Of a stretch of DNA of 64,000 bases, positions 31,517 through 59,147 are shown piece by piece. The notes beneath the pieces were generated by a model. It was not told the origin of the DNA and ran no database searches. It worked only from the letters and a program-made list of their open reading frames with translations. Position numbers and translations under genes: made by a program. Source of the stretch: Halosimplex rubrum (GTDB lineage Archaea; Halobacteriota; Halobacteria; Halobacteriales; Haloarculaceae); contig NZ_CP058910.1 in the NCBI RefSeq assembly GCF_013415885.1, positions 248,001 through 312,000 of the forward strand, given 5' to 3'. Each line of letters begins with the position of its first letter. Positions within the stretch are counted from its first letter, which is position 1.

Positions 31517-31745
31517 TCAGTCGCTCGCTGCGGCGTAGGGGTCCCGTTCCCAGAACTCGCTATCTTTTCTGAGTTTGGGCACCCAAGTGTCCTCGGTCTT
31601 CGAGAGCAGCGTGACGTGCGAGACGGGCACGTCGTTGAGGTAGTCGTGTTCGGGCACGTGTTCCATCACGTCCTCGGTGAACGCCCGCACGCCCTCGTGG
31701 TCGGGCATCGCATCGCGGTCGAGGCGGCCCCGCGAGTGGCCGACG
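31517..31745 (-). pseudogene. Orphan 3' fragment of taw1
   Basis: These 229 nt match the last 229 nt of intact taw1 at 47601-47829 at about 94 percent (14 or so differences by eye) in the same orientation. They encode the taw1 C terminus, from VGHSRGRLDRDAM to DPYA-ASD and the stop, with a few substitutions (for example HED to HEG and QKD to RKD). Homology stops sharply at 31745. Beyond it lie two small hairpins (31748-31762 and 31763-31774) and AT-rich DNA. The frame has no taw1 start and lacks the radical-SAM region. Confidence 0.9.
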
Positions 31746-32420: not shown

Positions 32421-33053
32421 ATGGCGGTACGCGTATTCGGGGATCCGGAGCCGTTTATCCAACGCAAAGCAGCGACGGGACGACTCGTGATACCGACCCT
32501 CATCGTGAGCGCCGTCTCGGTCGCGATGAGCCTGCAAGCGGCGGCGGTGTACATCGCGCTGGGCCCCGCCGTGTCGGAAATCATCAACGCCGTCATTCTG
32601 CTGGGCGGGTACTACTTCCTCGAGGGCTTTCTCCTCTGGCTGGCCTTCTCGTTCGCGCTGTACGTCCTGACGCTGGCAGCGGGCGGCCACCCCCTCTTCG
32701 GGCACATCACTCGGATCGTCGGCTGGGGAATGGCGCCGTTCGTCGGAACGGGACTGGTCTGGACGGCTGGCCGCTACTACGCGTTACAGGACGCCACGCC
32801 CCCGAAACTGGCCGTCAACAGCCGGATCGAACACGAGACGAACGGGCTGGCGGAGTTCATGAGTCACGCAGCCGGGGAACCGGCGTTCGTCGCCGCGATG
32901 GTCGCCGGGGGTCTCTTTCTGGCCGTGAGCGGGTACCTCTGGACGCTCGGCCTTACGAAAGCGGGAGAGCTCAGTAAGGCCCGAGCGGCGGTCGTCTCGG
33001 CGATACCACTCCTCGTCTTCTTCGGCTGGCGATTTCTCAACAGCGCCGTTTGA
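32421..33053 (+). CDS. Yip1-family polytopic membrane protein
   Basis: The 210-residue protein resembles the Yip1 domain family. It has an N-terminal amphipathic part (FGDPEPFIQRKAATGRL), five hydrophobic segments (about 20-42, 60-90, 97-118, 150-172 and 185-205) and the family-like segment FGHITRIVGWGMAPFVGTGL. Haloarchaeal Yip1 proteins are of unknown function. It is the first gene inside the suspected island, with its own TATA box. Confidence 0.75.
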   Translation: MAVRVFGDPEPFIQRKAATGRLVIPTLIVSAVSVAMSLQAAAVYIALGPAVSEIINAVILLGGYYFLEGFLLWLAFSFALYVLTLAAGGHPLFGHITRIVGWGMAPFVGTGLVWTAGRYYALQDATPPKLAVNSRIEHETNGLAEFMSHAAGEPAFVAAMVAGGLFLAVSGYLWTLGLTKAGELSKARAAVVSAIPLLVFFGWRFLNSAV

Positions 33054-33202: not shown

Positions 33203-33397
33203 ATGGGCCTCGTTCGACAGGTGTCACGGATCGTCCTCACGCTGGACGTTCTGTTCGTCCTGCTGCTCGGCTTCTCGTACGCGTTCGGCACGTTCGACGC
33301 CGAGACGCGCGTCGTGACGACGCTCGCGGCGATCCCGATCGCCCTGTCGTTTTTGAGCGCGGCGGTCGTCGTCGCGGTCGATTGGGACCCGTTGTAA
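33203..33397 (+). CDS. Small two-helix membrane protein
   Basis: The 64-residue protein has two hydrophobic helices (about 8-27 and 38-60) separated by the short polar turn FDAETRVV, and ends VDWDPL. A TATA-like box at the usual distance supports expression. Function unknown. It converges with the fused ATPase gene. Confidence 0.6.
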   Translation: MGLVRQVSRIVLTLDVLFVLLLGFSYAFGTFDAETRVVTTLAAIPIALSFLSAAVVVAVDWDPL

Positions 33398-33455: not shown

Positions 33456-35924
33456 CTACTCCGGTCGATCCGATTCGAGGAAGCAGGCGACACCGCGGTC
33501 GGGACCGTCCTCGGTGACTGACACGGTCTCCGGGGACCGGGCCTGACAGACCGTCTCGAACTCGGTTCTGAACAGCTCGTCAGCGGCATCGGTCCGCCCC
33601 TCGGCGATGTGTTCGAGGCCCGTCGACAGCACCCGTTCGGCGTCGGGGTCGCTCAGTTGCTCCGGGATACCGAAGTGGTCCCGCATCGCCGCCGGAAGGG
33701 ACTCGGCCGACCCGTCGGCAGTCGGTTCGCCGTTCGCATCCTCGAGAGCCTGCGCTTCGGCCTCCGTGCGGTCGAACCCCTCCCGCTCGACAGCGACTTT
33801 GAGGTCCATCACCGCGTTCCACGCCGATTGCTCGAAGTCGTACTCGGCCGGGGGGATCACCTCCGAGCACCTGGTGTGATACCGACACCCGCGAGGTGGG
33901 TCGGTAGGATCGGGAACGTCGATACGGCGCATCGGTCCGTCGCCGGCCTCGACCGACTCCCGGGACCCGAGATCCAGTTCCGGCGTCGCCCACCGCAGCG
34001 CCCGCGTGTATGGATGTCTCGGGTCGCTCATGATCTGGTCGACCGTCCCGACCTCGACGATCTCGCCGAGGTACATGACGGCGATCCGGCCGTCGGTCTT
34101 GCCGGCGATGTACCGGGCGTTCGAGAGATCGTGCGAGACGAACAGGTACGACGTGTCGAACCGCTCCTGCAGCTCTATCATCAGGTCCATGATCTCCACC
34201 CGCAGGCTCACGTCGAGCGCGCTGACCGGTTCGTCGGCGAGGATGACCTCCGGGTTCATCAGGAGCGCACGGACCAGCGCGACCCGCTGTTTCTCGCCGC
34301 CGGAAAGTTGGTGGGGGTACCGCTCGACGTAGTCTTCGGGGGGCGCCATGCCGACGTATTCGAGCATCGAGAGGATGAGTTCCCGCCGCTCCCGTTCGGA
34401 TTTGTCCCGCTGCCAGCGTTTCAGCGGCGCTTCCAGCATCGAACTCACCCGTCGCATGGAGTTGAGCGAACTGCCCGGGTCCTGGTGGACGATCTGGAGC
34501 GACCGGCGGATCCGTCGATACGGCGTCTCGATCTCGCCGAGGCGCTTTTTCGCCCGCCAGACGTCCTGTCCCCTGTACTCGACGCGTCCGCCGGTCGGTT
34601 CCTGCAGCGCGACGCCGACTTTCCCGAGCGTCGTCTTCCCGCAGCCGCTCTCGCCGACCAGCACCAGCACGTCGTTCTCGTAGATGTCGACGTCGACGCC
34701 GTCGACCGCCCGGACGACCTCCGGCTCCGAGAGGATCGAATCCAGCGGCCCGTCGTCCTCGAAGTGGACCTCGACGTCCCGCATCGAAACGACCGGGTCC
34801 GTCGACGGTTCGCGTCCGGGGCCGCCGTCGTCGTCCCGTTCGACGGGCGTGCGCTCGCCCGCGCGATCCCCGGCACCGCCGCCATCGCTCGGCATGGGGA
34901 CCGCATCCGCCGCGTCCTCCCAGTGATGACAGGCGACCACGTGGTCCTCGGACACCCGGTTCCCGCCGGGGTCCTCCCGTTCACACCGCTCGTCGGCGAG
35001 CGGACACCGCGGATGATACGAACACCCCGTCGGCGGGTCGACCGGGTCCGGGCTCGACCCCGCGATCGGTTCCATCGCGTCGAGCGGCATCGACGGGTTG
35101 GGCGTCGACTTCAGCAGCGACCGGGTGTACGGATGGGACGCATCCCGCAGGAGCGTCTCCAGCGGCGCGGTCTCGACCAACTCGAAGCCGTACATGACCG
35201 CCAGCCGGTCGACGAGGCCCGCGACCAGCGGGAGGTCGTGCGTGATGAACACGATCGTGAGGTCGTACTTGTCTTTCAGCTCCTCGATCATGGAGATGAT
35301 AGAGCGCTGCATCAACAGATCCAGCGCGGCGGTCGGTTCATCCATCACGAGGACTTCGGGTTCGAGCACGAGCGACAGCGCGATGAGCGCGCGCTGTTTC
35401 ATGCCGCCGCTCAGCTCGTGCGGGTAGGCGTCGAGCACCCGGTCGGGGTCGAGATAGAGGTCCGAGAGCAGCTGGCGCGCTCGCTCCATCCCCTCCGAGA
35501 CGGGCTCGTCGTGAGCGCTCAGCGTCTCGACGAAGTGGGTTCTGATCTCCCGGACGGGGTTGAACGAACTCATCGCCCCCTGGAACACCATCGAGACCTC
35601 CTCCCAGCGGTATCGATTGCGCTCCTGTTTGCCGAATTCGAGCACGTCGACCGGCTCGCCGGAGTCGGGATAGTACGTGATGTCGCCGGTCACCACGCCC
35701 GGGTCGACGACCGCGTCGAGCAGCGAATCGGCGAACATCGACTTCCCGCTCCCGGACTCGCCGACGACACCGAGTATCTCGTTTCGCCCGATCTCGAGGG
35801 TCACGTCGTCGAGAACGCGCGAGACGCCCCGGTCCATATTGAACCGGACCGTCAGGTCGCTGACCGCCAGGATCGGGTCGGACACCGACAGCGGGTCGTC
35901 GGGGTCCGTCTGGGAGACCGTCAT
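33456..35924 (-). CDS. Fused double ATPase of an Opp/Dpp-type ABC importer
   Basis: The 822-residue protein joins two complete ABC ATPases that are separate (DppD and DppF type) in most operons. The first has Walker A GESGSGKS (55-62), signature LSGGMKQR (171-178) and Walker B VLVMDEP. The second has Walker A GESGCGKT (about 430), signature LSGGEKQR and Walker B VILADEP. The first half ends with the OppD/F Cys motif (GCSYHPRCPLADERCE). In the second half this motif is reduced to YHTRCSEV, and a 120-residue acidic extension follows. The gene lies 339 bp downstream of the permease gene on the same strand. The substrate could be oligopeptides or oligosaccharides. Confidence 0.92.
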   Translation of the reverse strand: MTVSQTDPDDPLSVSDPILAVSDLTVRFNMDRGVSRVLDDVTLEIGRNEILGVVGESGSGKSMFADSLLDAVVDPGVVTGDITYYPDSGEPVDVLEFGKQERNRYRWEEVSMVFQGAMSSFNPVREIRTHFVETLSAHDEPVSEGMERARQLLSDLYLDPDRVLDAYPHELSGGMKQRALIALSLVLEPEVLVMDEPTAALDLLMQRSIISMIEELKDKYDLTIVFITHDLPLVAGLVDRLAVMYGFELVETAPLETLLRDASHPYTRSLLKSTPNPSMPLDAMEPIAGSSPDPVDPPTGCSYHPRCPLADERCEREDPGGNRVSEDHVVACHHWEDAADAVPMPSDGGGAGDRAGERTPVERDDDGGPGREPSTDPVVSMRDVEVHFEDDGPLDSILSEPEVVRAVDGVDVDIYENDVLVLVGESGCGKTTLGKVGVALQEPTGGRVEYRGQDVWRAKKRLGEIETPYRRIRRSLQIVHQDPGSSLNSMRRVSSMLEAPLKRWQRDKSERERRELILSMLEYVGMAPPEDYVERYPHQLSGGEKQRVALVRALLMNPEVILADEPVSALDVSLRVEIMDLMIELQERFDTSYLFVSHDLSNARYIAGKTDGRIAVMYLGEIVEVGTVDQIMSDPRHPYTRALRWATPELDLGSRESVEAGDGPMRRIDVPDPTDPPRGCRYHTRCSEVIPPAEYDFEQSAWNAVMDLKVAVEREGFDRTEAEAQALEDANGEPTADGSAESLPAAMRDHFGIPEQLSDPDAERVLSTGLEHIAEGRTDAADELFRTEFETVCQARSPETVSVTEDGPDRGVACFLESDRPE

Positions 35925-36263
35925 GGCGACCCCCGGTAGGCGTCGCCACCGGCGGTCGGCGTTGGTTGGGCCGGTTCACCGGCGGCCGGCCGTCGACCGC
36001 GCCTCCGCGGATCGATCCGCCGACCCGACGGAACGACCGCGCGTGTCCGGACCGGGCGTCCGCTTCCCGGCCCGAGACGCCGTCCCGGGAGCCGGTCGCG
36101 GCTCGACCGCACTGGACGCAGATGACACTTGGCCGTCGTACACTGTCGGCGCTCGTTCATTCGTAACGTGCGGGTGGTAACCTGGACGCGATTTAACGGT
36201 TTCGGGAGCCCGTGACCGTCGCCCCGCCGCGACAGGCGGACCGCACCGGGGCGGTAGTCCCAG
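35925..36263. other. Gap inside the transporter cluster
   Basis: This 339-bp GC-rich stretch separates the permease and ATPase genes. I see no convincing frame, repeat or strong TATA box; it is an unusual interruption of an otherwise compact ABC operon. Confidence 0.5.
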
Positions 36264-37361
36264 TCAGAACCACGAGGACGCGGACGTGTCCGTCTCGTCG
36301 ACCTCCTCGGCCGAGACCTCCTCGGCCGTCTCGGCGTGGCTCGCCCTGACGCGGGGGTTGAACACGCGGTCCAGCGACTGCGAGAGGAGGATCATCCCCA
36401 TCGAGAGCCCGGTGACGGACACGATGGGCACGATCAGCCAGTGGACGGCCTCCATCCGGTAGTGGGCGCCGTACTGGTAGGCGAGGTTCATCGTGACCCC
36501 CCAGTTGGGGTCCGAGAACGGGAGGACGCCGATGAAGTACAGGCCGACCGCACCGAAGATCACGTTCCGGCTCGCGTGGACGAGGTTGACCGAGATGTAC
36601 GTCATGAGGTGGGGCAGGACGTCCTTCGTGATGATGGCGCTCGTGGGGATCCCCATCGCCCGCGAGGCTTCGGCGTAGGACTCCTCGCGGATCGTGAGCA
36701 CCTGCGACCGGATCGAACGGGCGAGACCGGCCCAGGAGGCGACCGAGAGGAGGAGCCCGATCAGCCACGGGCTCTTCGGGGAGAAGATGGCCGCGAGCAC
36801 GATCACCAGCGGGAGGCCCGGGAGGTTGATGAACACGTCGGTGACCGTGCTCAGCAACGTGTCGACCAGCCCGCCCTTGTACCCCGCGACGGTGCCGAAG
36901 AGCGTGCCCACCGTCACCGTGAACAGCCCGCCGGCCGTCATCATCTTCAGGATCGGCGCCGTCGAGTAGACGGCCAGCGAGAGGAGGTCCGACCCAGTGT
37001 TGTCGGTGCCGAGCGGATGCTCCCAGCTCTCGAACGGCCCAAGCAGCGGCTCACCGTCCATGACAGTCGTCGGTTCGACGACCACCGGACCGAGGATCCC
37101 CATGGCGAGATAGAAGAGGATCAGCGCGCATCCGATACGAGCGCGCCAGTCGTCCCACAGCACCGAGACGGGCGTGTAGACGTAGTACCGGTAGAGCGTC
37201 TCCAGTCGGTCTCGTCGCGTGTTCTCGACGGTGTGGTCCGATGTCTCGCCGAGCGCATCGAGCGGCGAAGCCGTCCGTTGTCCGCCGTCGCTCCGGGGAC
37301 TCGCAGCGCTCGTCGTTTCCGCCCGGTCCGACTCGGCCGTCGTGTCGTCAGTACGTGTCAC
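36264..37361 (-). CDS. ABC importer permease, DppC type
   Basis: The 365-residue inner-membrane permease has an N-terminal acidic cytosolic tail (about 65 residues), about six membrane segments and the EAA-type coupling loop ESYAEASRAMGIPTSAIITK. A conserved extracytoplasmic HPLGTDNTGSDLLS follows the first helix, as in DppC/OppC. Its ATG overlaps the 3' end of the DppB-type gene by 14 nt, so the two are coupled. Confidence 0.92.
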   Translation of the reverse strand: MTRTDDTTAESDRAETTSAASPRSDGGQRTASPLDALGETSDHTVENTRRDRLETLYRYYVYTPVSVLWDDWRARIGCALILFYLAMGILGPVVVEPTTVMDGEPLLGPFESWEHPLGTDNTGSDLLSLAVYSTAPILKMMTAGGLFTVTVGTLFGTVAGYKGGLVDTLLSTVTDVFINLPGLPLVIVLAAIFSPKSPWLIGLLLSVASWAGLARSIRSQVLTIREESYAEASRAMGIPTSAIITKDVLPHLMTYISVNLVHASRNVIFGAVGLYFIGVLPFSDPNWGVTMNLAYQYGAHYRMEAVHWLIVPIVSVTGLSMGMILLSQSLDRVFNPRVRASHAETAEEVSAEEVDETDTSASSWF

Positions 37362-38343
37362 TGTTAGTGCCCTCCACGCGGGGGTCGATCTTGCTGTAGG
37401 TGAGGTCGGCGACGAAAAGCGCCACCACGACCGCGATCGTGATCACCATGAAACAGCCCAGCATGACCGGATAGTCGCGGTGGTCGACGCTCTGGACCAG
37501 GATGAACCCCATCCCGTAGTAACTGAAGACCGTCTCGAGTATCACCGCACCGCTGAACATGCTCCCGAGGGAGATCATGAAGCCGGTGTACATCGGGAGC
37601 AGCGCGTTCCGAGCGACGTACTGGACGGCGATCGTCCTGTCGGAGAGGCCCCGCAGTCGAGCCACCCGCAGGTAGTCCTCGCCCAGCACACGGATGCTGT
37701 TCCCGCGCATCGAGAGCGATGCGATCCCGCCCGACAGGACCAGCGAGAACACCGGGAGCACCGCGTGGTTGATCACCCCGGAAATGTACGGCCAGGTGAA
37801 CCCCGGTGCCATCCCGTTCGGGGCGCGTCCGCTGGTGGGGAATATCTGGTACCGGTAGGAGAGGAACAACACCAGCAGGACGGCGAAGACGTAGTAGGGG
37901 ATCGACCCGGCGACCATCGCGTACGACGTGAGCCCGAGGTCCAGCCGTCCGCCCTCGTAGTACGCCATGAGCGCCCCGAGCGCGATCCCGACGAAGAAAC
38001 TCAGGAACGTCGCCCAGCTCAGCAGGAAGACCGTCCAGGGAAGCGTGTCCGCGATCATCACGCTCACTTCCTTCCCCGACCACAGCGAGGTCCCGAGGTC
38101 GCCCCGCAACACGTCCGTCACGTAGTCGATGTAGGCGATGTGGATCGGATCCTCGGGGTTGATCCCCGCGAGGTTCGTCACCTGCGCCTGAATCTGGCTC
38201 GCCTCCACCCCCTCTGTCTCCAACTGTGCGATGAGCGCGTCGACAACGTTCCCGGGCATCAGCCGGATCAAGACGAACGACAGGGTGATAACCACGTAGA
38301 TGGTTATCACCACCTGTCCGAGTCGCTTGAGCAACCATCTCAT
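37348..38343 (-). CDS. ABC importer permease, DppB type
   Basis: The 331-residue permease starts MRWLLKRLGQVVITIYVVI, with the classic first helix and VLIRLMPGNVVD of DppB/OppB. Six membrane segments and the coupling loop GEDYLRVARLRGLSDRTIAV follow. It should pair with the DppC-type subunit encoded next. The substrate-binding protein gene ends 187 nt upstream. Confidence 0.93.
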   Translation of the reverse strand: MRWLLKRLGQVVITIYVVITLSFVLIRLMPGNVVDALIAQLETEGVEASQIQAQVTNLAGINPEDPIHIAYIDYVTDVLRGDLGTSLWSGKEVSVMIADTLPWTVFLLSWATFLSFFVGIALGALMAYYEGGRLDLGLTSYAMVAGSIPYYVFAVLLVLFLSYRYQIFPTSGRAPNGMAPGFTWPYISGVINHAVLPVFSLVLSGGIASLSMRGNSIRVLGEDYLRVARLRGLSDRTIAVQYVARNALLPMYTGFMISLGSMFSGAVILETVFSYYGMGFILVQSVDHRDYPVMLGCFMVITIAVVVALFVADLTYSKIDPRVEGTNSDTY

Positions 38344-38530
38344 GTGCCGACAGTCCAGAGCAATACTATTTGAAGGTTACGCTCGACCGCCGCGAGTGCT
38401 GCCGGCCGACCACCTCCCGAGCAGTCGGGCGGCGGCCGTGTGCGATCGACTCCCGGGACGCGGGCTGCTGTGGGTTCGAGCCGTGGCCGATAGCCGAGGC
38501 TCGGGACCGGAGATCCGGCTGACGGATCCC

Positions 38531-40498
38531 CTACTGGGTCGTCGCGATGTGACCCTCTCGGAGGAGCCACCAGTTGGCACTCGGGCTGTCGCGGGGCGCC
38601 GGCTCGTCGGTCGTGATCTCGAACCCGTCGTTGTGCAGCGCGCCCATCCAGGGCCGCGAGCAGACCCAGGTGGCCATCTGATACTGGTTCCAGACCCACC
38701 CGAGCTTGGTGAGCACCTCCCGCTGTGTCGCCGTGTCCGTCGTCGACTCCATCGTCCCGATCACCTCCGAGAGGTCGACTGTCTGCAGGGAGCCGTTGTC
38801 GGGGTCGAGCACCGCTTCGCCGACGCTCGGGACCTCCACTTCCGTCGGGTAATGGAACCGTCGCTGGTCGTACCCCAGCATGGCTCCGGACTTCCAGTTC
38901 TCGAGCGAGTCGTCGATGCTGCTCGGGTCGATGTACGTGTCGAACTCGCCGTTCCTGCGCCGGTCGACGAAGGTCGGGTCGTCGACGATGTCGAGGGTCA
39001 CGTCCCACCCGAACGAGTTGAGGTCGGCCGCCATCGATCGGGCCGCGGGCACGCGCGACGGGAAGTCCGCGGTCAGCAGCACCAGTTCGGCCTGTTCCCC
39101 GTTCTCGTCGAGGACCGTCCCCCCGTCGTAGGAGTACCCCTCGGAGGCGCGGATCATCTCCTCGGCGCGGTCGAGTTTGGGCGACCCGTCGTCCGAGTGG
39201 GCGGTGAACTGGTCGGCCGGCAACCAGTCGCTCTCGATGTCGTTGAAGTGCAGGTTCGTATCGACGTGCGTCCAGGGCTCCCAGATGCCCTGGCCCTGTG
39301 CCGCCGCGGCGTTGGCGCGGTTGATGGTGAACGAGATGGCGTGGCGGATCTCCCGTTCGAAGGTCGGCCGGTTCTGGCTCTCGGGGAGGTTCGCGCCGGA
39401 GTTCATGACGAGTCGCAACAGCCGGTTGTTGTCGCGGCTGTAGTTCTGGTACCCGTCGTCCGAGGGCATCTGGTTCTGCAGGTCCTGACCGAACGGGAGC
39501 CCGGCGTCGACCATGTCGACCTGTTGTTCGAGCCACGCGAGCCGCTCGTCCTCGTGGGTGTTCCACTCGATGCGGTCGTACTCGATGTCCTCCGCGAAGC
39601 GGTGGTCCTCGTACACCGAGAGTTCGAGGTAGGTCGGTTCCACGGTCTCGAACTCGTACGGACCGTAGCCGACGAACCGCTCACCGTCGACGGTCACGTC
39701 GGTGTGTTCGCCCAGTTCGGAGAGGACCTCGCCGAACTCGTCGGTCCCGGGACCGGCGCTGTCGAGTCGGTCGCGCCACTCGTTCCAGTGCGACGGGTGG
39801 AACGGGTAGAGGTACTCGTCGAGCAGGACCTTCGCGAACCACCGGGGGTTCCACTGCTGGGTCAGGTCGAACCGGATGGTGTGGTCGTTCTCGACCTCCC
39901 AGTCGGTGAAAAACCGGTCCATGTTCGTCTCCTGGTCGTTGTGCTCGTTGATCATGCTCTGGATGTCGTATCGCAGAGCGATCGACTCGGCCGTGTAGGG
40001 GTCGCCGTTGTGCCAGGTCTGCTCGCGCAACTCGACGTACGCCGTCTGGCCGTCGATCTCGAAGTTGCGCGCATGGACCGGGTGGATCTCGCCGGTGTTC
40101 ACCGAGTACTTCACCAGCGGGTCGAACAGGATGCGCCCGAACCGAGCGCTGTTCGTGATAGCGTTCGCTGGACCGAACGCTCCGTTCATGTGGAACTGGT
40201 CCATCTGGTTCGTCCCGACTCTCACGATGGCCGTCGACTCGTCCGTCTCGGCGCTCCCGTCACCGCTAGTGTTACCGTCCTCGCTAGACCCACCGCTACT
40301 GCCGTCACCGGAGCCGCCGCCACCGCTACCCGACCCGGCGTCACCGTCGCCGTCGCCGGAAGTGCTCGCACCCGAACTGTCGTTGCTGCAGCCGGCGAGG
40401 AGCCCCGCCGCGGCCGCCCCGGCGCCCTGGAGCATCCGCCGCCGGGTCAGATAATCGTTGATCTCTGCAACTCTCGGATCGTCGGACTCGGGAGCCAC
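38531..40498 (-). CDS. ABC importer solute-binding lipoprotein (family 5)
   Basis: The 655-residue protein has a Tat-type signal (YLTRRRMLQGAGAAAAGLLAG) and lipobox Cys C37. A Ser/Gly/Asp-rich linker and then a family 5 extracellular solute-binding domain follow (YDIQSMINEH, IRFDLTQQWNPRW, ISFTINRANAAAAQG). This family binds oligopeptides, nickel or, often in archaea, oligosaccharides. It is first in the operon, with a strong TATA box at 40521-40530. Confidence 0.92.
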   Translation of the reverse strand: MAPESDDPRVAEINDYLTRRRMLQGAGAAAAGLLAGCSNDSSGASTSGDGDGDAGSGSGGGGSGDGSSGGSSEDGNTSGDGSAETDESTAIVRVGTNQMDQFHMNGAFGPANAITNSARFGRILFDPLVKYSVNTGEIHPVHARNFEIDGQTAYVELREQTWHNGDPYTAESIALRYDIQSMINEHNDQETNMDRFFTDWEVENDHTIRFDLTQQWNPRWFAKVLLDEYLYPFHPSHWNEWRDRLDSAGPGTDEFGEVLSELGEHTDVTVDGERFVGYGPYEFETVEPTYLELSVYEDHRFAEDIEYDRIEWNTHEDERLAWLEQQVDMVDAGLPFGQDLQNQMPSDDGYQNYSRDNNRLLRLVMNSGANLPESQNRPTFEREIRHAISFTINRANAAAAQGQGIWEPWTHVDTNLHFNDIESDWLPADQFTAHSDDGSPKLDRAEEMIRASEGYSYDGGTVLDENGEQAELVLLTADFPSRVPAARSMAADLNSFGWDVTLDIVDDPTFVDRRRNGEFDTYIDPSSIDDSLENWKSGAMLGYDQRRFHYPTEVEVPSVGEAVLDPDNGSLQTVDLSEVIGTMESTTDTATQREVLTKLGWVWNQYQMATWVCSRPWMGALHNDGFEITTDEPAPRDSPSANWWLLREGHIATTQ

Positions 40499-40520
40499 AG
40501 CCGGGCCTTCCCCTCGATGG

Positions 40521-40530
40521 TATATAAAAA
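40521..40530 (-). promoter_or_regulatory. TATA box of the transporter operon
   Basis: Minus-strand TTTTTATATA is centred about 28 nt upstream of ATG 40498, ideal for a leaderless transcript of the solute-binding protein gene. Confidence 0.75.
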
Positions 40531-40650
40531 TTTCTAACTAAGGAAGATATATCTGGAGGCGAACCGGTAACGATCCGACAAGCGGTTCGTCCGCACCCCG
40601 TCGGGGAGCGGCGAGTGCGACGGCGCCGGTCCCGGTGACGCCCCCGCCGA

Positions 40651-40884
40651 CTACCGTCTCGTTCGCCGGATTAGCGCGTAGCTGACGGTTCCGACCGACA
40701 GGAGACCGATACCCCAGATCGGGAGAAGCGCCGCGTAGACACCCGTTTGAAGGAGAAATCCCGACAGGACGAAGCAGAGACCGGCGATCGCGAGTTTGAG
40801 CGAGAGCGACCGCCGTATGGTCCCCGCTACTGCGGTCGTCACTTCGACGGCATGGTTCGACGATATCGCGTCTGGTGCTGCCAT
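40651..40884 (-). CDS. Small two-helix membrane protein
   Basis: The 77-residue protein starts at ATG 40884 (MAAPDAISSNHAVEV) and has two hydrophobic helices (about 30-48 and 52-70) ending in a basic IRRTRR tail. An AT-rich TATA box (minus AAATTTATTTAAG, about 40911-40923) lies about 31 nt upstream. Function unknown. It stands between the transporter operon and the paired palindromic elements. Confidence 0.6.
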   Translation of the reverse strand: MAAPDAISSNHAVEVTTAVAGTIRRSLSLKLAIAGLCFVLSGFLLQTGVYAALLPIWGIGLLSVGTVSYALIRRTRR

Positions 40885-41024
40885 CTCTCGATCGGGCGTC
40901 GAACACCACACTTAAATAAATTTTGTCGGCGGCGAATCGCTCGCTGGCCTCCGCGGCCGGTCCGCCGTCCGTCTCGGACAGCGCGGGGTCGGACACGCGC
41001 GGGGCGACCGAACGACACCCCCTG

Positions 41025-41093
41025 ATTACACTCGTACGACTGTTATGTAGTGCTATAGGGGAGTGGTGACGAGAAAGTCATGGGGGTATAAAC
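41025..41093 (+). promoter_or_regulatory. Palindrome-containing element, copy A
   Basis: ATTACA, a 10-nt spacer and TGTTATGTAGTGCTATAG lead, 47 nt further, to a TATA-like GTATAAAC. The same layout recurs 278 bp to the right (copy B). The core TGTAGTGCTATA (41046-41057) is an imperfect version of the perfect palindrome in copy B. The surrounding 624-bp gap (40885-41508) contains no supported gene. Confidence 0.5.
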
Positions 41094-41302
41094 GGCGCAA
41101 TCTCGCGACGCCCCAGACGAGTTCGCGGAGACCCGACCGCCGTCGTCGGTTCGTCGGGCGCTCGACACGGGCGCCCGGCAGGGCTGATCGGACGGTGGTC
41201 CGACCGAGTCCGAAACCCGGATCGAGCACCGTCGACCGGCCAGCAGTTCGGACGGCGATACCCCATCCGGAGCGGGGAAGCGGCTCCTCCCGGCTGCCCC
41301 GA

Positions 41303-41371
41303 ATTACAATTTTAGGAGTGTTATGTAGCGCTACAGTGGCCTGGGTAGCGCTGGTTTCCCCGGGCATAAAG
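41303..41371 (+). promoter_or_regulatory. Palindrome-containing element, copy B
   Basis: ATTACA, a 10-nt spacer and TGTTATGTAGCGCTACAG, then CATAAAG 46 nt further, align base for base with copy A at its key positions. TGTAGCGCTACA (41324-41335) is a perfect 12-bp palindrome and looks like a dimeric-regulator operator. A second GTAGCGCT half follows at about 41345. Confidence 0.5.
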
Positions 41372-41508
41372 ACGACACTCGCACAGCTGTGTAGGGGCGA
41401 CCGGCGGATAGCCGCGGCTGACGGGTGAGTGGTTCGCGGTCGAGGAGCCGGGAGACGGTCAGCGCGGTCGGTACCGTGATGGCCGGACGCGTCGGGAACG
41501 GCGTCCGG

Positions 41509-42729
41509 TCAGGCGAACGGGGTAAACCGGGTGTACTCGGTCACGTCGACGGGCGACCGCGGCGCTGCCCACGACACGCCGAGTTCCGAGGGGAGCGCCC
41601 GCTCGGCGAACGCGTCGCTCAGGAGGTCGACGACCCCGTCGGCGACGTGATTGACGGCGCCGTCGTCCGTGGTTTCCGTGTGGACCGCGTCGTCCGGGAG
41701 GGGGACGACGGGTCCCGACGACTCGAAGGAGCCGTCAACGGCGACGACGAACTCCCGGGAGTTGTCCGGCGTGCAGTACAGTTCGCTTCTCCGACCCTGC
41801 TCGTACCGAGCGGCCGTCCGGAAGACCTCCTTCCCGAGGTCGACCCCCTCGTTGTCGAACTCGAACCGGTTTCCGTCGGCCGTCCGGACCGTCGCCGTCC
41901 CGTCGTAGTGCCACTCCGCGGTCCCGTCGGTGCCGGTGATCTGTATGCTGGGGTCGCGTCGCTCGGCCGACGCGTGGGTGACGTACAGGCCGATCTCGAC
42001 GTCGCGCTCCGTCGTCGCGTGGACACACGCGATGTCGGCCGCCCGGATCGCCGGGTTCGCGCGGTATCGCTCGGCCCCGACCTCGGTCAGCGAGGCAGTC
42101 TCGTGGAGCCCGTCGCCCGCGAGGAACAGCATGTTCTGCAGGAAGTGCGCGAAGGCGTTGTTGACGGGGCCGTCCAGCACCACGTCGCCCTCGTGCAGGA
42201 GTTCGCCGGCCCAAGGGGTCCGTTTGTAGTACGCGTCGTCCCGCGGCCAGCAGCCCATGCATGCGATGGATCTCAGTTCACCCAGGCTCCCGTCGAGGAT
42301 CGTCCGCTTCAGTCGTCGGATCGACGGGGCGTGGAGGTGCTGGAACCCGATCGAACAGAAGTTACCGGTCCGGTCGGCGGTCCGGCAGAGCGCATCGAGT
42401 TCGTCGATGGTGGGAGCCGGCGGTTTCTCCAGCAGGACGTCGTACCCGTGGGTCATCCCAGCGATGCTGAGCTCCGCGTGCGCGGGGATCGAGACGGGGA
42501 GCCCGATCACGTCGACGTGGTCGTGTCCGGTGCGGAGCAACTCCTCGTAGGAGTCGTAGATCCGGAACCCCTCTGACCTGAGTTCCCTGGCGCGCTCGGC
42601 TTCGCCTTTCCCGTCGGCCACGACGACGCCCGTCAACCGAAGGCCTTCGTCCCGGAGCGATCGAACGCGCGAGATGTACTCCGCGGCGAAGTTCTGTGCG
42701 CCGACGACCGCAAAACCGGTTCGGTCCAT
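41509..42729 (-). CDS. Gfo/Idh/MocA-family oxidoreductase
   Basis: The 406-residue protein (start ATG 42729) has an N-terminal Rossmann fold (MDRTGFAVVGAQNFAAEYI), the catalytic-Lys motif in VLLEKPPAPTIDELD, the following GFQHLHAPSIRRLK segment and a C-terminal alpha/beta domain. Members oxidise sugars, inositols or amino sugars with NAD(P). It lies 96 nt beyond an inositol-monophosphatase-family gene on the same strand, so the two may be co-transcribed in a polyol or sugar pathway. The substrate is not determined by sequence. Confidence 0.88.
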   Translation of the reverse strand: MDRTGFAVVGAQNFAAEYISRVRSLRDEGLRLTGVVVADGKGEAERARELRSEGFRIYDSYEELLRTGHDHVDVIGLPVSIPAHAELSIAGMTHGYDVLLEKPPAPTIDELDALCRTADRTGNFCSIGFQHLHAPSIRRLKRTILDGSLGELRSIACMGCWPRDDAYYKRTPWAGELLHEGDVVLDGPVNNAFAHFLQNMLFLAGDGLHETASLTEVGAERYRANPAIRAADIACVHATTERDVEIGLYVTHASAERRDPSIQITGTDGTAEWHYDGTATVRTADGNRFEFDNEGVDLGKEVFRTAARYEQGRRSELYCTPDNSREFVVAVDGSFESSGPVVPLPDDAVHTETTDDGAVNHVADGVVDLLSDAFAERALPSELGVSWAAPRSPVDVTEYTRFTPFA

Positions 42730-42825
42730 TGGTTGGGTCTCGGTGGGACAATCTGCGGGTGCCGGTATCAAGATTCCGGCTGGGCGATCCGAACGGGTAG
42801 CCGGCCGGGGGACACCGTTCGCACC

Positions 42826-43608
42826 TCACGACGGGTTCAGAAAGTCGATCCGGCCCCGGAGGTTCCCGTTCGTGGCGACGACGTCGCCGTCCAGGAGCGT
42901 CTGCTCGGTCCCGTTCCCGTCGAAGTCGGTGACGGTCCCGCCGGCCTCCTCGACGATGAGCGTCCCTGCCGCGACGTCCCAGGCGCTCAGGTTCCGGTGG
43001 AGGAACCCCTCGAAGGTCCCGTCGGCCGTGTAACACAGCTGGAGCGCGGCCGACCCGTACCGGCGCACGCCCAGCGTCTCGTCGAGGAGGTATTCGAACG
43101 CGGACCGGAGCGTTCGGTCACCGGTGTCCTTCCGTGAGAAGCCGATACCGAACAGCGACCGGTCGAGCGCCGTCTCCGTCGAGACGGAGATCGGGTCGCC
43201 GTCACGGTACGCGCCTTCCCCCCGCACCGCCGCGTACGTCGTGTCGGACTGGAGGTGGTGGACGATGCCGACCTCCCGGGTGCCGTCGACGACGAGCGCG
43301 AGCGAGATCGACGAGTGGGGCAGCCCGTAGACGAAATCCGTCGTTCCGTCGATGGGATCGATGTACCAGACCGCGTCCGAGTTCCCGACGGCCCCCTCCT
43401 CTTCGCCCACGAACGCGTGCGTCGAGAACTGCTCCGAGACGTGTTCCTTGATGCGCTGTTCGACCTCGAAGTCGACCTTGGTCACGAGCTGCTGCGGGGA
43501 TTTCAGTTCGGCGCTGTCCCACTCTAGGTCCCGATGGATGACAGCCGCCTGCTCCACTGCTTCCAGTCCAACACGTAGCGGATCGCTACTCTGCCGAAGC
43601 GACTCCAT
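42826..43608 (-). CDS. Inositol-monophosphatase-family phosphatase (copy 1 of the island)
   Basis: The 260-residue Mg-dependent phosphatase has the family motifs FVGEEEG, WYIDPIDGTTDFVYG and the C-terminal WDVAAGTLIVEEAGG. The family dephosphorylates inositol 1-phosphate, fructose 1,6-bisphosphate, PAP or histidinol phosphate. DPIDGTTDF is closest to inositol or sugar phosphatases. The TATA box at 43631-43640 is correctly spaced. It precedes the Gfo/Idh gene on the same strand. Confidence 0.9.
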   Translation of the reverse strand: MESLRQSSDPLRVGLEAVEQAAVIHRDLEWDSAELKSPQQLVTKVDFEVEQRIKEHVSEQFSTHAFVGEEEGAVGNSDAVWYIDPIDGTTDFVYGLPHSSISLALVVDGTREVGIVHHLQSDTTYAAVRGEGAYRDGDPISVSTETALDRSLFGIGFSRKDTGDRTLRSAFEYLLDETLGVRRYGSAALQLCYTADGTFEGFLHRNLSAWDVAAGTLIVEEAGGTVTDFDGNGTEQTLLDGDVVATNGNLRGRIDFLNPS

Positions 43609-43630
43609 GAGGGGTAGATACCGTGAAGTG

Positions 43631-43640
43631 TTTAAATAAC
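43631..43640 (-). promoter_or_regulatory. TATA box of the island phosphatase gene
   Basis: Minus-strand GTTATTTAAA is centred 27 nt upstream of ATG 43608. The divergent gap 43609-43966 also carries an AT-rich box (aattataag, about 43916-43924) for the plus-strand gene; no other feature is seen in it. Confidence 0.65.
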
Positions 43641-43966
43641 CTGTGACTTGGTACTTGTGTGTTGCTGTTCGATCTGGGGGACCGATAGCGAGGGCCCCAC
43701 CGGAGCCGTCGGTTCACCTGGATTCGACGGCACGGAGTGCCAGGGGCGGTGGCGACGAGTCGCCGCCCTCGCCGATCCACCCCGGCTCGCGAGCAGTTGT
43801 CACCCCTTTCCGTCGTGCGGTCACGGTTCGTCGGCGCCGACCGAATGTGACTCCGGATATGTTCTCTCAGTACCTGAAGAGAGCGTATCGACGTATCGTG
43901 TCCCCCATGTATAGAAATTATAAGATGTTTTGTCCAAAACCGAATAGAATGATATGCGGTCAACGC

Positions 43967-45055
43967 ATGACAGACAGCACTGAGACTTCGGTTACCAGGC
44001 GAACAGCACTGAAAGCGGGAGTCGGCGCCCTCGGCGGCGGCGCCATCGCGATAGCGGGATCGAACGGGACCGTCCGGGCGGCCTCGGAGTCCCACCAGTT
44101 CCTGTGGGTGAACTCGTGGCTGACCGACGGGATCGAGGGCGTGCTCGGGCTCCCATCCGACGTGGCCGCGAAACCGGCGTACCAACAGCGGGCGGCGGAA
44201 CTCGGGACGCGCCTCGGCGAGGACGGGTACGACATCGTCGGCCTGGCCGAGGTCTTCAACGACGAGCAGGACACCGTCGCGGACAACTACACCGCCGCCG
44301 CGGGCTCCGGCGAGTCCGTCCCGGGCCCGGCGGCCGACGGCGGTGAGAAGGGCGCAGGCCTCCTGGATCTCGTCTCCGGGGTGAGCGTGACCGACCAGGC
44401 GACCATCGAGTACGCGGCGGAGCCGTCGGACAACCTGACGTACGTCGACGCCCACGTCGGCAAGGGCGTGAACTACGCCGAGCTGGACCTCGGACCGGGG
44501 AAGATCGACCTGTTCTCGACGCACCTCGTCACCGGGTCGCTGCTCCCCTGGGCCGACAGCGGTGACGAGGACATCCCGGCCCTGCGGGAGGACCAGGTCG
44601 ACGAACTCGGCGACTTCGTCTCCGAGCAGGCCAGCGACGAGAACGTGACCGTCGTCGCCGGGGACTTCAACATCGAGCCGACCGAGGACGCGTTCGACGC
44701 GGTCGCGGACCTCAAGTCGACCGTCGGCCTCTACGACGCCTGGGAAACCCACGGGACCGGACACGGCGGCACCGAGGACAACGCCATCTTCGACGGCTGT
44801 GACTTCCAGCCCAGCGAGGCGCCGCCGGCGTACTGCCCGAACGACGACGCCGGCGACCGCATCGACTACGTCTTCATCGAGGAGGCGACGTCCGCACACG
44901 CGATGTCGGTGACCGTCGAGGACATCCGACGGCGCGTCTTCTGGCGGGAGCTGGCCCCGCCGGAGCAGTTCTACGTCGACGACGACGAGACGGAACCGAA
45001 CTACCTGACCGACCACGTCGGTCTCGACCTCTCGCTGAGCGTCGCCGCCGCCTGA
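43967..45055 (+). CDS. Tat-exported endonuclease/exonuclease/phosphatase-fold enzyme
   Basis: The 362-residue protein has a Tat signal (TSVTRRTALKAGVGALGGG) and a probable cleavage after VRAA. The EEP fold is marked by IVGLAEVFN (metal Glu), STHLVTG, VVAGDFNIEPTED (catalytic DxN), DRIDYVF and YLTDHVGLDL (terminal Asp-His). This fold covers DNases, sphingomyelinases and inositol-polyphosphate phosphatases; SHQFLWVNSWLTDG at the front and the overall length suit the sphingomyelinase/phosphodiesterase branch. It acts outside the cell. Starting at ATG 43949 would put it about 29 nt from an AT-rich box and is a reasonable alternative. Confidence 0.85.
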   Translation: MTDSTETSVTRRTALKAGVGALGGGAIAIAGSNGTVRAASESHQFLWVNSWLTDGIEGVLGLPSDVAAKPAYQQRAAELGTRLGEDGYDIVGLAEVFNDEQDTVADNYTAAAGSGESVPGPAADGGEKGAGLLDLVSGVSVTDQATIEYAAEPSDNLTYVDAHVGKGVNYAELDLGPGKIDLFSTHLVTGSLLPWADSGDEDIPALREDQVDELGDFVSEQASDENVTVVAGDFNIEPTEDAFDAVADLKSTVGLYDAWETHGTGHGGTEDNAIFDGCDFQPSEAPPAYCPNDDAGDRIDYVFIEEATSAHAMSVTVEDIRRRVFWRELAPPEQFYVDDDETEPNYLTDHVGLDLSLSVAAA

Positions 45056-45194
45056 GTCCCGGACCCCTCCGGTTCCCCTTATTTCGAGAGCTCGGGAGCA
45101 GGTGGCGTGCGTGGACCGAGGGGACCGCCCCACAGTGTCGAACGAGAGAGCGCTTTATAGCGGGGCTACTGATAGCTCTATACCGCACATAGCA

Positions 45195-45203
45195 ATTTAA
45201 TTA
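45195..45203 (+). promoter_or_regulatory. TATA-like box of the second island phosphatase gene
   Basis: ATTTAATTA is centred 29 nt upstream of ATG 45228. Just before it lies TATAGCGGGGCTACTGATAG followed by CTCTATA, rich in TAG/CTA half sites. Confidence 0.55.
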
Positions 45204-45227
45204 CGCGAGAGGCGACCGATCCCGCGT

Positions 45228-46007
45228 ATGGTCGAGCCGAAAAACGGGGTTCTGTGGACGGGCGTTCGGGCCGCGCGTCTGGCCGGCGATTCGCTGTCCG
45301 AGGAGTTCTTCGACCGGGGGAACCCGGCGACTGTCGAGGCGGGCGACCGGGATATCGACCGGTGGATCGAGGAGCGGGTCATCGCGGTCATCAGCCGAGA
45401 GTTTCCCGACCACAACATCGTGTCCGAGGAGAGCAACCCGGAGTTCGCGGTCCAGCCGCGGTGGATCATCGACCCGCTCGACGGGTCGATCAACCTCAGG
45501 AACGGGATTCCCCACTTCGCCATCTCGATCGCGTTTCAGGGCGCCCGGGAGCCGGACGTCGGGATCGTCTATCACGTCCCCAGCGACACGATGTACACGG
45601 CGGTCGAGGGCGAAGGCGCCTACGCGAACGGGCGGCGACTCTCCACGTCCGACACCGCCGACGTGTCCGAAGCGGTGGTCGTGACCGGGTTCGACCCGGC
45701 CACGATGCGTGCGAGCGACTTCCAGCAGTTCCAGTCCCTGCTGGCCGAGACGGGTGGCGTGCGACGGTTCGGGTCGGCGGCCAGCGAGCTTTCGATGGTC
45801 GCGGCCGGGCAGTTCGACGCCTTTTTCGAACGGATGCTCTCGATGTGGGACACGGCCGCGGGGACGATGATCGTCGAGGAAGCCGACGGGAAGGTGACGA
45901 GGGTCGACCTCGTCAACGACAACAACGAGATGATACTCGCGTCGAACGAGGAACTCCACCAGGACCTCATCGTCCTCATCTCATCGAAGGCGAAATCGAA
46001 GCAGTGA
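45228..46007 (+). CDS. Inositol-monophosphatase-family phosphatase (copy 2 of the island)
   Basis: The 259-residue paralogue has NIVSEESNPEF in place of the usual GEE, the metal motif WIIDPLDGSINLRNG, and MWDTAAGTMIVEEADG near the C terminus. All three metal-binding signatures remain, so it is probably active, but the family N-terminal region is more divergent than in copy 1. It follows the EEP gene by about 170 nt on the same strand with its own TATA box. Confidence 0.87.
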   Translation: MVEPKNGVLWTGVRAARLAGDSLSEEFFDRGNPATVEAGDRDIDRWIEERVIAVISREFPDHNIVSEESNPEFAVQPRWIIDPLDGSINLRNGIPHFAISIAFQGAREPDVGIVYHVPSDTMYTAVEGEGAYANGRRLSTSDTADVSEAVVVTGFDPATMRASDFQQFQSLLAETGGVRRFGSAASELSMVAAGQFDAFFERMLSMWDTAAGTMIVEEADGKVTRVDLVNDNNEMILASNEELHQDLIVLISSKAKSKQ

Positions 46008-46120
46008 GGCGCTGTCTCGGAGTGACGAGCGGAGTCGGCCCGGCCGGAGAGCGCCGCTGGGGCTCGCCCGGACGGAGCGACTCCGGTTTCGGTGGTGGGC
46101 GACGGCGGCTTCGGCTGGGG

Positions 46121-46131
46121 TAAATTTATTA
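46121..46131 (+). promoter_or_regulatory. TATA box of the BNR-propeller gene
   Basis: TAAATTTATTA is centred 28 nt upstream of ATG 46155; it excludes the upstream in-frame ATG at 46092. Confidence 0.65.
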
Positions 46132-46154
46132 CCCGGTCGGGTTTCTGGGGACAC

Positions 46155-47537
46155 ATGGGACCCGATCCAAAAGCCCCTGGTACCAGCGCCAGCAGTGCGT
46201 CGGTAACGGCCAGAACGATCACTGACGAGGCCGGTCGCAAGGCCGCCCACGACAAACAGAACCCTCAAGCGGTTTATCGGGCCGAACGGGAGACGACGTA
46301 CGTCGTGTTCCGGGGTGACGACGCCGACCCGTTCGCGACCGAGTACGACCACGCGACCGGCGAGTTCGGGCCGCTGACGCGGGTCGGTCGGAACCCGATC
46401 CCCGACGACGACACGCACGGCGCTCCCGCACTGACCGTCGACGACGACGGCTACCTCCACGTCTTCTACGGCGTCCACAACGACCCCATCTCGTACGCGA
46501 GAAGCGCCCGACCCTACGAGACGACCGAGTGGGAACTGCTCGGCGACCCGGTCGACTGCGATGCCGACGATGTGCTCGCCTCGCCTGGATGGGACACCGA
46601 CCGAGCCCTCCTCTCGGTCCCCGGCGGCACGTACACGTTTCCCCTCACGTATCAGAACGACATATATGTACTGTATCGGACTGGAACGGAACCGAACGCC
46701 CATGGCGCGGACCCGAAACAGGGGGGCGACCGGACGACCTACCCCTCTCACGAGTTCGCGACGATACTCAGGAGCACCGACCGAGGGGACTCCTGGGAGG
46801 ACCTCGGACCGGTCATCGACACGAGGGGTGCGCGCGGACGGCCGGAGACGGACGCGTACGTCGAAGATTTCGACGAGCGGGGCGGCAACCTCCACATCAC
46901 CTGGACGGTCGCGACGGGGGACGCCGAATCGCAACCACCTCGCGGACACGACGGTCCCCGGAAAGGCGGGTTCCACGCCTACTACGACGTATCCGACGGC
47001 GAACTGTACGATCTAGCCGGGAACAGGTACACGACACCGATCACGTGGGAAGACCACAACCGCGGCGCCGTTCGCATCGCGAACGACGAACACGTTACTG
47101 AAAGCGGGTGGGTGTACAAGCACCTGATCGCGAATGACGAAGTGTTTGTAGTCTTTCAGTCGAAAGATAACATCGGAAATTCGATAAACCATCCACAGCA
47201 CGTGATCGCCACCTACGACGACGGCTGGCAGTTCGAACCGATCCCCGGCGGGCAGACTGCGAGCAGTCACGGTCACATTCGCACCGACGACGCGGGGGAC
47301 CTGGAGGCGCACCTCGTCGAGCGGAACGCCGAGCGGGGCGACGGGGCGAACTACACCCGCTTCGTCCGTCGCGACGGTTCGTGGGAGCGCACGCGCGTCA
47401 TCGAGAACGAGGCCATCGAGGGCATCAACACGGTCCGCGACGGGACCGACGAGTTCGCCGCCGTCGCGAACGAGTGCTCGGGCGAGAACGACGAGTTCTC
47501 CGAGCGACTGTGGGGCGTGGGGAGCTTCGAAACCTGA
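46155..47537 (+). CDS. BNR-repeat beta-propeller protein (BNR_4-like; possible polysaccharide lyase)
   Basis: The 460-residue protein has no signal peptide. Repeated beta motifs with Asp-box-like turns (STDRGDSWEDLG) and the block HGAPALTVDDDGYLHVFYG, then HNDPISYARS, resemble the BNR_4 family, which includes ulvan lyases of families PL24 and PL25. Conserved His, Arg and Tyr (DEHVTESGWVYKHLI, SSHGHIRTDD) could form an active site. The absence of an export signal would place it in the cytosol, acting on imported oligosaccharides. A non-enzymatic propeller cannot be excluded. Confidence 0.7.
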   Translation: MGPDPKAPGTSASSASVTARTITDEAGRKAAHDKQNPQAVYRAERETTYVVFRGDDADPFATEYDHATGEFGPLTRVGRNPIPDDDTHGAPALTVDDDGYLHVFYGVHNDPISYARSARPYETTEWELLGDPVDCDADDVLASPGWDTDRALLSVPGGTYTFPLTYQNDIYVLYRTGTEPNAHGADPKQGGDRTTYPSHEFATILRSTDRGDSWEDLGPVIDTRGARGRPETDAYVEDFDERGGNLHITWTVATGDAESQPPRGHDGPRKGGFHAYYDVSDGELYDLAGNRYTTPITWEDHNRGAVRIANDEHVTESGWVYKHLIANDEVFVVFQSKDNIGNSINHPQHVIATYDDGWQFEPIPGGQTASSHGHIRTDDAGDLEAHLVERNAERGDGANYTRFVRRDGSWERTRVIENEAIEGINTVRDGTDEFAAVANECSGENDEFSERLWGVGSFET

Positions 47538-47600: not shown

Positions 47601-47829
47601 TCAGTCGCTCGCTTCGGCGTAGGGGTCCCGTTCCCAGAACTCGCTGTCCTTCTGCAACTTGGGAACCCAGGTGTCCTCGGTCTTCGAGAGCAGCGTGACG
47701 TGCGAGACGGGCACGTCGTTGAGGTAGTCGTGTTCGGGCATGTGTTCCATCACGTCCTCGGTGAACCCCCGCACGTCCTCGTGGTCGGGCATCGCATCGC
47801 GGTCGAGGCGGCCCCGCGAGTGGCCGACG
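47601..47829 (-). repeat. Right copy of the 229-bp direct repeat (3' end of intact taw1)
   Basis: This segment pairs with 31517-31745 at a constant offset of 16,084 bp and in the same orientation. Homology ends at 47829 inside the coding sequence of taw1. Confidence 0.9.
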
Positions 47830-48584
47830 TGCATGTACGCCTTTAGCTCGACGAAGTCGGGGTCGGCCCGCTGGAACATCGACGCGTACCACTCGGGGTG
47901 GTGCATGTTGTTGCCGTTCACCAGCGTCGTCCGGAGGACCGTACGGGTCTCGTCTTTCTCGGCGAGCACGTCCAGCGTGTCGATCAGCCGCTCCCAGGCG
48001 TCGTCCTCGACCGCTTTGACCGTCTCGTCGAAGGTCCACCGGTCGGGCGCGTCGACACTGACGTACAGCTGCGTGGGGTCGCACTCGGCCAGCACCTCGG
48101 GTTTCGTCCCGTTCGAGACGAGGAAGGTAGTGATGTCCCGGTCGCGGAACTCCTCGATGAGTTCCGGCAGATAGGGGTACAGCGAGGGCTCGCCGTCCAG
48201 CGAGATGGCGACGTGACGCGGCTCCATCGCCTCCTCGAAGCGCTCGCGGGGCACCTCCTCGTTGCCGCCGAAGCCCGAGAGGATCTTCTTCTGGAGTTTC
48301 AGCGAGGCGTCGGCAACGGCGCTGGGGTCGTCCCACTCCACGTCGCCCAGCTCGTAGGCGTGGCCCGCGTGATCCCGCCAGCAGAAGACACAGCGCTCGT
48401 TGCACTTGACGACCGGCGTCATCTGGATACAGCGGTGTGACTCGATCCCGTAGAAGGCGTACTTGTAGCACTTGCCCTCTCCCCGGAGCGAGTTGGCCGT
48501 CCACCCGCAGGTCTGGGCGGCGGTGTGGTTCTCGCTGTGGTACTCCGGGTCCGACACCTGCTTGGGACCGTCCGATTCGCTCAT
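47601..48584 (-). CDS. taw1: 4-demethylwyosine synthase (radical SAM tRNA enzyme)
   Basis: The 327-residue protein has the radical SAM motif C61-x3-C65-x2-C68 (CNERCVFCW) and the three further cysteines C26, C39 and C52 that bind the second iron-sulfur cluster of TYW1/Taw1. SLDGEPSLYPYLPELI and FLVSNGTKPE are also typical. It condenses m1G37 of tRNA-Phe with two carbons of pyruvate to give the tricyclic 4-demethylwyosine. The start is ATG 48584 (MSESDGPKQVSD), with a weak TATA (minus TGTATACG) about 25 nt upstream. Its last 229 bp are duplicated at 31.5 kb. Confidence 0.95.
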   Translation of the reverse strand: MSESDGPKQVSDPEYHSENHTAAQTCGWTANSLRGEGKCYKYAFYGIESHRCIQMTPVVKCNERCVFCWRDHAGHAYELGDVEWDDPSAVADASLKLQKKILSGFGGNEEVPRERFEEAMEPRHVAISLDGEPSLYPYLPELIEEFRDRDITTFLVSNGTKPEVLAECDPTQLYVSVDAPDRWTFDETVKAVEDDAWERLIDTLDVLAEKDETRTVLRTTLVNGNNMHHPEWYASMFQRADPDFVELKAYMHVGHSRGRLDRDAMPDHEDVRGFTEDVMEHMPEHDYLNDVPVSHVTLLSKTEDTWVPKLQKDSEFWERDPYAEASD

Positions 48585-59086: not shown

Positions 59087-59147
59087 CGGCGGTCACCCCT
59101 GCCGTCGAAACTCATGAGTAAGGGATTCCGACCGACTATGTAGGCGG

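Follow-up and report, generated by a model that had tools for sequence, protein, structure and literature searches.

A variable Halosimplex locus as a candidate for the catabolism of acidic, possibly phosphorylated oligosaccharides

Next to its taw1 gene, the haloarchaeon Halosimplex rubrum carries a block of about 16 kb that encodes an importer, a dehydrogenase, two phosphatases of the inositol monophosphatase (IMPase) family, a phosphodiesterase of the endonuclease/exonuclease/phosphatase (EEP) fold and a BNR_4 propeller protein. The block was analysed in a window of 64,000 nucleotides, positions 248001-312000 of the single 4.48-Mb contig NZ_CP058910.1, and all coordinates refer to this window. 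It sits between positions 31517-31745 and 47601-47829 and contains the following features.

31517-31745, minus strand: duplicated 3' end of taw1 (TYW1), the distal border; 229 nt, 94% identical to 47601-47829
32421-33053, plus strand: Yip1-domain membrane protein (PF04893, E 2e-10); a 42% identical homologue lies inside the G376 cluster
33203-33397, plus strand: small membrane protein accompanying this importer type; small genes of about 40-44% identity lie beside related importers and in the G376 cluster
33456-35924, minus strand: fused OppD-OppF importer ATPase (PF00005 twice and oligo_HPY)
36264-37361, minus strand: OppC-type permease, Opp4C-like (PF00528, BPD_transp_1)
37348-38343, minus strand: OppB-type permease (PF00528, BPD_transp_1), overlapping OppC by 14 nt
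38531-40498, minus strand: family-5 solute-binding lipoprotein (SBP_bac_5, PF00496, E 2e-24) with an RRR...LAGC signal
40651-40884, minus strand: possible small membrane protein of 77 residues, an open reading frame in the gap; a 49% identical stretch occurs in the G376 cluster
41509-42771, minus strand: Gfo/Idh/MocA dehydrogenase with an EKPP motif (PF01408 and PF22725)
42826-43608, minus strand: IMPase-family phosphatase 1 (Inositol_P, PF00459, E 7e-58), GEE, DPIDGT and WD motifs intact
43967-45055, plus strand: predicted Tat-exported EEP phosphodiesterase of the sphingomyelinase-C-like branch (sphingomyelinase C profile matches, catalytic residues kept)
45228-46007, plus strand: IMPase-family phosphatase 2 (Inositol_P, PF00459, E 8e-48), motifs intact
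46155-47537, plus strand: BNR_4 propeller, predicted cytosolic uronate lyase of the PL25/PL42 type (phmmer match to 5uam of PL25, catalytic residues and fold search)
47601-47829, minus strand: 3' end of taw1, the proximal repeat copy and border; the intact taw1 spans about 47601-48584 (TIGR03972, above cut-off)

A sequence-only reading of the window had described a taw1-flanked block as a candidate for the uptake and breakdown of a phosphorylated or acidic polyol or sugar. The genes it listed were all found at the correct place, with intact reading frames and in the families it had given. The flanking by taw1 consists of a direct repeat, 229 nt of the taw1 3' end at either border, and the fusion of the importer ATPases is evident from a single chain with Walker A, LSGG and DEP motifs, each present twice. 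Two gene starts had to be moved. The EEP protein was rightly called exported, as it has a twin-arginine translocation (Tat) signal, but the start at 43643 is too early since the conserved homologues begin at 43967. The BNR_4 protein has no signal peptide, in line with the cytosolic location proposed for it, but judged by its homologues the start lies near 46155 rather than at 46092. Two small membrane-protein genes, the Yip1-like gene and a 1-kb gap at 40499-41508 between the binding protein and the dehydrogenase had not been listed; at the position of this gap, the genome G352 has SIS and NagA genes. The block genes have a haloarchaeal codon bias. Apart from the small membrane proteins and the Yip1-like protein, the block comprises nine main genes, for which the ratio of nonsynonymous to synonymous substitution rates was 0.04-0.32 against close relatives, showing that they are under purifying selection in these close comparisons.

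The sequence-only reading had also stated that it would fall if the genes did not travel together in other genomes. They do travel together. In the Halosimplex genomes G352 and G371, the complete block is found at the same taw1/riboflavin-kinase site with 81-99% amino-acid identity. In G376, another Halosimplex, the nine main genes and three small ones are reordered at an unrelated site within 19.6 kb. The identities to this shuffled cluster are 75% for IMPase 1 and the EEP protein, 66% for the MocA dehydrogenase and the BNR_4 protein, 58-66% for the permeases and the ATPase, 57-59% for IMPase 2 and 34-41% for the binding protein; the Yip1-like and small membrane genes are also present. The EEP gene adjoins IMPase 2 in both arrangements, and the MocA dehydrogenase is 92, 81 and 66% identical in G352, G371 and G376, respectively. 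Outside Halosimplex, this dehydrogenase had no match at 1e-40 in about 390 Halobacteriales. IMPase 2 gave no match at 1e-50 in G274, G354 and G359. Chance proximity was rejected as an explanation, given that the reordered genes again lie within 19.6 kb on a G376 contig of 4.8 Mb. We conclude that the genes form one conserved unit, co-inherited in four genomes.

The unit is not present at every taw1 site. In G274, taw1 is present without the block and without the duplication, whereas G352 has the taw1 3' end at both block ends, with the distal copy 80-83% identical, and G371 has lost the distal copy. Together, these states indicate that the block was probably inserted before the lineage of the window split from G352. 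A candidate mechanism is single-crossover integration of a circle bearing the taw1 3' end, which would account for a repeat of this length; none of the genes annotated in the block was seen to encode an integrase.

The importer has the full component set of the Opp/Dpp (family 5) importers, consisting of an SBP_bac_5 binding protein, two permeases and OppD and OppF ATPases of the oligo_HPY type. It differs from other members of this family in the company that its relatives keep. The related ATPases and permeases are 42-65% identical (61-65% for the ATPases in uronate loci), and in haloarchaea they adjoin rhamnogalacturonan lyases, members of families GH28, GH88, GH115 and GH4, sulfatases, 2-keto-3-deoxygluconate (KDG)-type aldolases and other MocA genes. 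In G193, the relative is found with a PL11 rhamnogalacturonan lyase, GH88, GH4 and BNR_4, in G241 with GH115 and PL11, in Haloprofundus and Natrinema with GH28, pectate lyase and a MocA gene, and in Halopiger with pectate lyase and rhamnogalacturonan acetylesterase. Halocatena marina, Halobaculum halophilum and Haladaptatus have it with BNR_4 and variously with sulfatases, MocA genes and KDG-type aldolases. By association, these neighbourhoods indicate acidic sugars rather than peptides as the cargo. The block thus shares its importer type and a MocA dehydrogenase with the pectin and rhamnogalacturonan plasmid loci of Haloprofundus, Natrinema and Halopiger and with the loci of Halocatena marina and Halobaculum halophilum, several of which also have a BNR_4 protein. 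However, those uronate loci have secreted lyases or hydrolases, IclR regulators and KDG-type aldolases or dehydratases that the block is without, and the block adds the IMPases and the EEP protein.

The BNR_4 protein was best matched by the PL25 ulvan lyase PLSV_3936 (phmmer to 5uam, E 4e-11) and weakly by GH145/PL42 chains. All six residues reported as important in PL25 are kept. Counted from the 46092 start, His109, His129, Tyr181, Arg196, Tyr256 and His268 correspond to His123, His143, Tyr188, Arg204, Tyr246 and His264 of PLSV_3936. The chains of 5uas and 5uam differ at the aligned histidine, which fits 5uas being a His123 mutant, and the other five residues were placed by counting from this position. 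The roles of the catalytic-site residues have been described for PL25 (PMC11395424, PMC8377490), which also has a zinc site between blades 2 and 3 (PMC11395424), and for BtGH145 mutation showed that an equivalent triad on the lyase face makes it a Rha-GlcA lyase (PMC8406133; Bacteroides GH145 enzymes). The sequence-only reading had suggested structure prediction for this protein. An AlphaFold model made from two sequences was weak, with a mean predicted local distance difference test (pLDDT) of 51 and a predicted template-modelling score of 0.53; with it, the top 12 Foldseek matches were all PL25, GH145 or PL42, with PL25 first, followed by GH145/PL42 and then FoRham1. The similarity, the His/Tyr/Arg triad and the assisting His and Tyr place the protein among the putative uronate lyases with the seven-bladed BNR_4 propeller, as in PLSV_3936 (5uam/5uas), BT3686 and FoRham1. 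It differs from these in an identity of only about 18% in the fold alignment. Since it has no signal peptide, unlike its exported relatives in G073, the enzyme is probably cytosolic.

A BNR_4 gene and an importer of this type are at most about 20 kb apart in Halobaculum halophilum, Halocatena marina, Haladaptatus pallidirubidus, a second Halosimplex pelagicum locus, G193 and G073. A scan of the genome contigs for BNR_4 returned only this second H. pelagicum locus and a metagenome-assembled genome of Coriobacteriia, and a scan of viral contigs returned nothing. The H. pelagicum locus (L058, at about 2.12 Mb) has a BNR_4 gene of 37% identity, accompanied by a pair of Opp-type ATPases, an enolase-superfamily dehydratase, a DHDPS-type aldolase and a hydroxyacid dehydrogenase, and is probably a separate uronate/rhamnose locus.

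In both IMPases, the metal-binding motifs EE, DPxDGT/S and WD are intact. They matched the generic IMPase, fructose bisphosphatase (FBPase) and HisN models below the cut-offs and were equally close to the FBPase/IMPase and the HisN models, and no specific NCBIfam equivalog was passed. Relatives of IMPase 2 lie elsewhere beside CUT1-type or energy-coupling factor (ECF)-type transporters. In the rhamnose/pectin region of the Halopiger plasmid pHALXA01 (L076, 13983-20221), an IMPase pair lies beside an ECF-type transporter and a PHP-like protein, the latter assigned by eye and without a Pfam match. The EEP profile matched sphingomyelinase C structures (best E 9e-10). Its catalytic E, H, D-N, D and D-H residues are invariant in 10 homologues, and with these residues and its closest relatives it is predicted to be a sphingomyelinase-C-like phosphodiesterase. 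An AlphaFold model of the EEP protein alone (mean pLDDT 33) was too poor to be of use. Two further enzymes are encoded in the clusters of G352 and G376, a NagA-type deacetylase and a GlmS/GlmD-like SIS-domain enzyme. The NagA of G376 passes TIGR00221 (275 against 225.65) and its G352 homologue is 68% identical. N-acetylglucosamine 6-phosphate is therefore likely an intermediate in these two of the four clusters.

The gene content, the co-inheritance, the conserved catalytic residues, the Tat signal motif and the contexts of the relatives are established. From these we infer every substrate, the role of the phosphatases and the order of the steps. The reading we lean towards, with moderate confidence, is that the block is a variable Halosimplex catabolic locus for acidic (uronic-acid-containing), possibly phosphorylated oligosaccharides that are imported and then cut by beta-elimination in the cytosol. 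Short acidic glycans would enter by way of the Opp-type importer and its membrane-anchored binding protein. The BNR_4 enzyme would then cut at C4 of the uronic acid, with His109 as the acid, Tyr181 as the base and Arg196, together with His129 and Tyr256, neutralising the carboxylate. The Gfo/Idh/MocA enzyme may oxidise or reduce the released sugar, the IMPases may dephosphorylate sugar phosphates that are imported or arise as intermediates, and the exported EEP protein may cleave extracellular phosphodiester links. In the sister clusters, NagA and the SIS-domain enzyme would feed N-acetylglucosamine 6-phosphate to fructose 6-phosphate. A uronic-acid polysaccharide such as ulvan had been the second option of the sequence-only reading, and the uronic acid is in keeping with the PL25-type residues, with the outcome of the fold search and with the gene neighbourhoods of the relatives. 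Of the earlier interpretation, the single conserved unit and the uronic-acid option have held up and the inositol option is not supported.

Several observations weigh against a uronate locus. The block encodes no secreted polysaccharide depolymerase, no sulfatase and no unsaturated-uronyl hydrolase, and a search of the whole genome found no GH88. An unsaturated product would therefore lack an evident route, unless unsaturated uronate is set free and then rearranges. The KDG-type aldolase and dehydratase genes that are usual in related loci are missing from the block, neither the window's genome nor G371 has NagA, and the IMPases and the EEP protein are hard to place in a pathway for uronate alone. 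On pectin and alginate, no growth was obtained for haloarchaea that have polysaccharide lyase genes (PMC9726719), which is a caution for inference from genomes. With respect to ulvan, the known utilisation systems have sulfatases and an unsaturated-uronyl hydrolase with the lyase, whereas around the BNR_4 gene of the block there is neither a sulfatase nor a GH88/GH105 gene. About 20 sulfatase genes, several of them clustered, are found only elsewhere in the genome of the window, at about 1.13-1.19, 2.92-2.94 and 3.43 Mb.

The presence of the phosphatases in the block hints that the sugars carry phosphate. In a stricter version of the preferred explanation, the substrate would be a glycan that contains uronic acid and N-acetylhexosamine and is phosphorylated or linked by phosphodiesters, such as a bacterial or archaeal cell-surface polymer. 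The EEP protein would open the phosphodiester outside, and after import the IMPases would dephosphorylate the fragments and the lyase and NagA/SIS enzymes would break them down. This idea is kept alive by the EEP protein and both IMPases, which belong to the cluster in each of the four genomes, by their occurrence together with the lyase, SIS and NagA genes in G352 and G376, and by the IMPase pair of the Halopiger region. It is difficult to reconcile with the missing NagA in the window's genome and in G371 and with the EEP homologues of Natrialbaceae (about 67% identical), which adjoin folate and cobalamin genes and not sugar genes. We consider this version, with a phosphorylated substrate as its central theme, plausible but unlikely. 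It is likewise improbable, on our estimate, that we are dealing with a new archaeal phospho-glycan locus in which a uronic acid/N-acetylhexosamine phosphodiester polymer, possibly from the surface of neighbouring cells, is handled in turn by an exported phosphodiesterase, an oligosaccharide importer, phosphatases in the cytosol and a PL25-type lyase, also cytosolic. The EEP protein as a standing member of sugar loci outside Halosimplex was rejected on its Natrialbaceae positions and the lack of a match in the plasmid search.

The same Natrialbaceae positions, and the IMPase 2 homologues beside CUT1-type or ECF-type transporters, would suit two merged units: an acidic-glycan locus of importer, MocA and BNR_4 genes, and EEP and IMPase passengers that serve phosphate scavenging, lipid turnover or the general sugar-phosphate balance. 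However, all genes are kept together in the rearranged G376 cluster despite identities of about 40-75%, and the EEP gene stays next to IMPase 2. We regard a merger as quite unlikely. The use of inositol phosphates, an option named by the sequence-only reading, or of inositol phospholipid head groups is very improbable. The exported EEP protein would free inositol phosphate, which the importer would take up, the IMPases would convert to inositol and the MocA enzyme would oxidise. The match of the EEP profile to sphingomyelinase-C-type phospholipases agrees with this, as does the co-inheritance of two IMPases and the MocA enzyme with the EEP protein in four genomes. However, the dehydrogenase scored 33.8 against an IolG cut-off of 355, the IMPases are as near to the FBPase/IMPase as to the HisN models and passed none, and the BNR_4 lyase and NagA/SIS genes would have no role. 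The gene content of the four clusters included no further iol or other inositol-pathway gene; the rest of the genome was not searched. With these model scores and missing genes, an inositol pathway was rejected.

According to PMC13260240, haloarchaea were first shown in 2026 to grow on acidic polysaccharides, namely on glycosaminoglycans via PL8. The system of Natronoarchaeum and Haloarcula resembles the block in that a lyase and an importer feed uronate and aminosugar pathways, but differs in its extracellular PL8 lyase (PMC13260240). PF02278 (PL8) had no match in the four Halosimplex genomes, nor did the control genomes give one. Many other haloarchaeal lyase genes are without a known substrate (PMC9726719). 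The Halosimplex locus, compact and conserved and equipped with phosphatases besides its putative cytosolic PL25-type lyase, is a testable candidate for an unassigned archaeal pathway, and also a candidate for the use of a phosphate-bearing glycan in brines.

Just outside the block lies a gene for a GH4 glycosidase (51264-52583), 56% identical to a melA-annotated alpha-galactosidase of a Haladaptatus plasmid; it is also found near taw1 in H. pelagicum (92%). Directly past it, a CRISPR array on the minus strand (52722-55443) has 42 repeats of the RF01337 (CRISPR-DR24) type, and near the array is a polyphosphate kinase gene (55779-59096).

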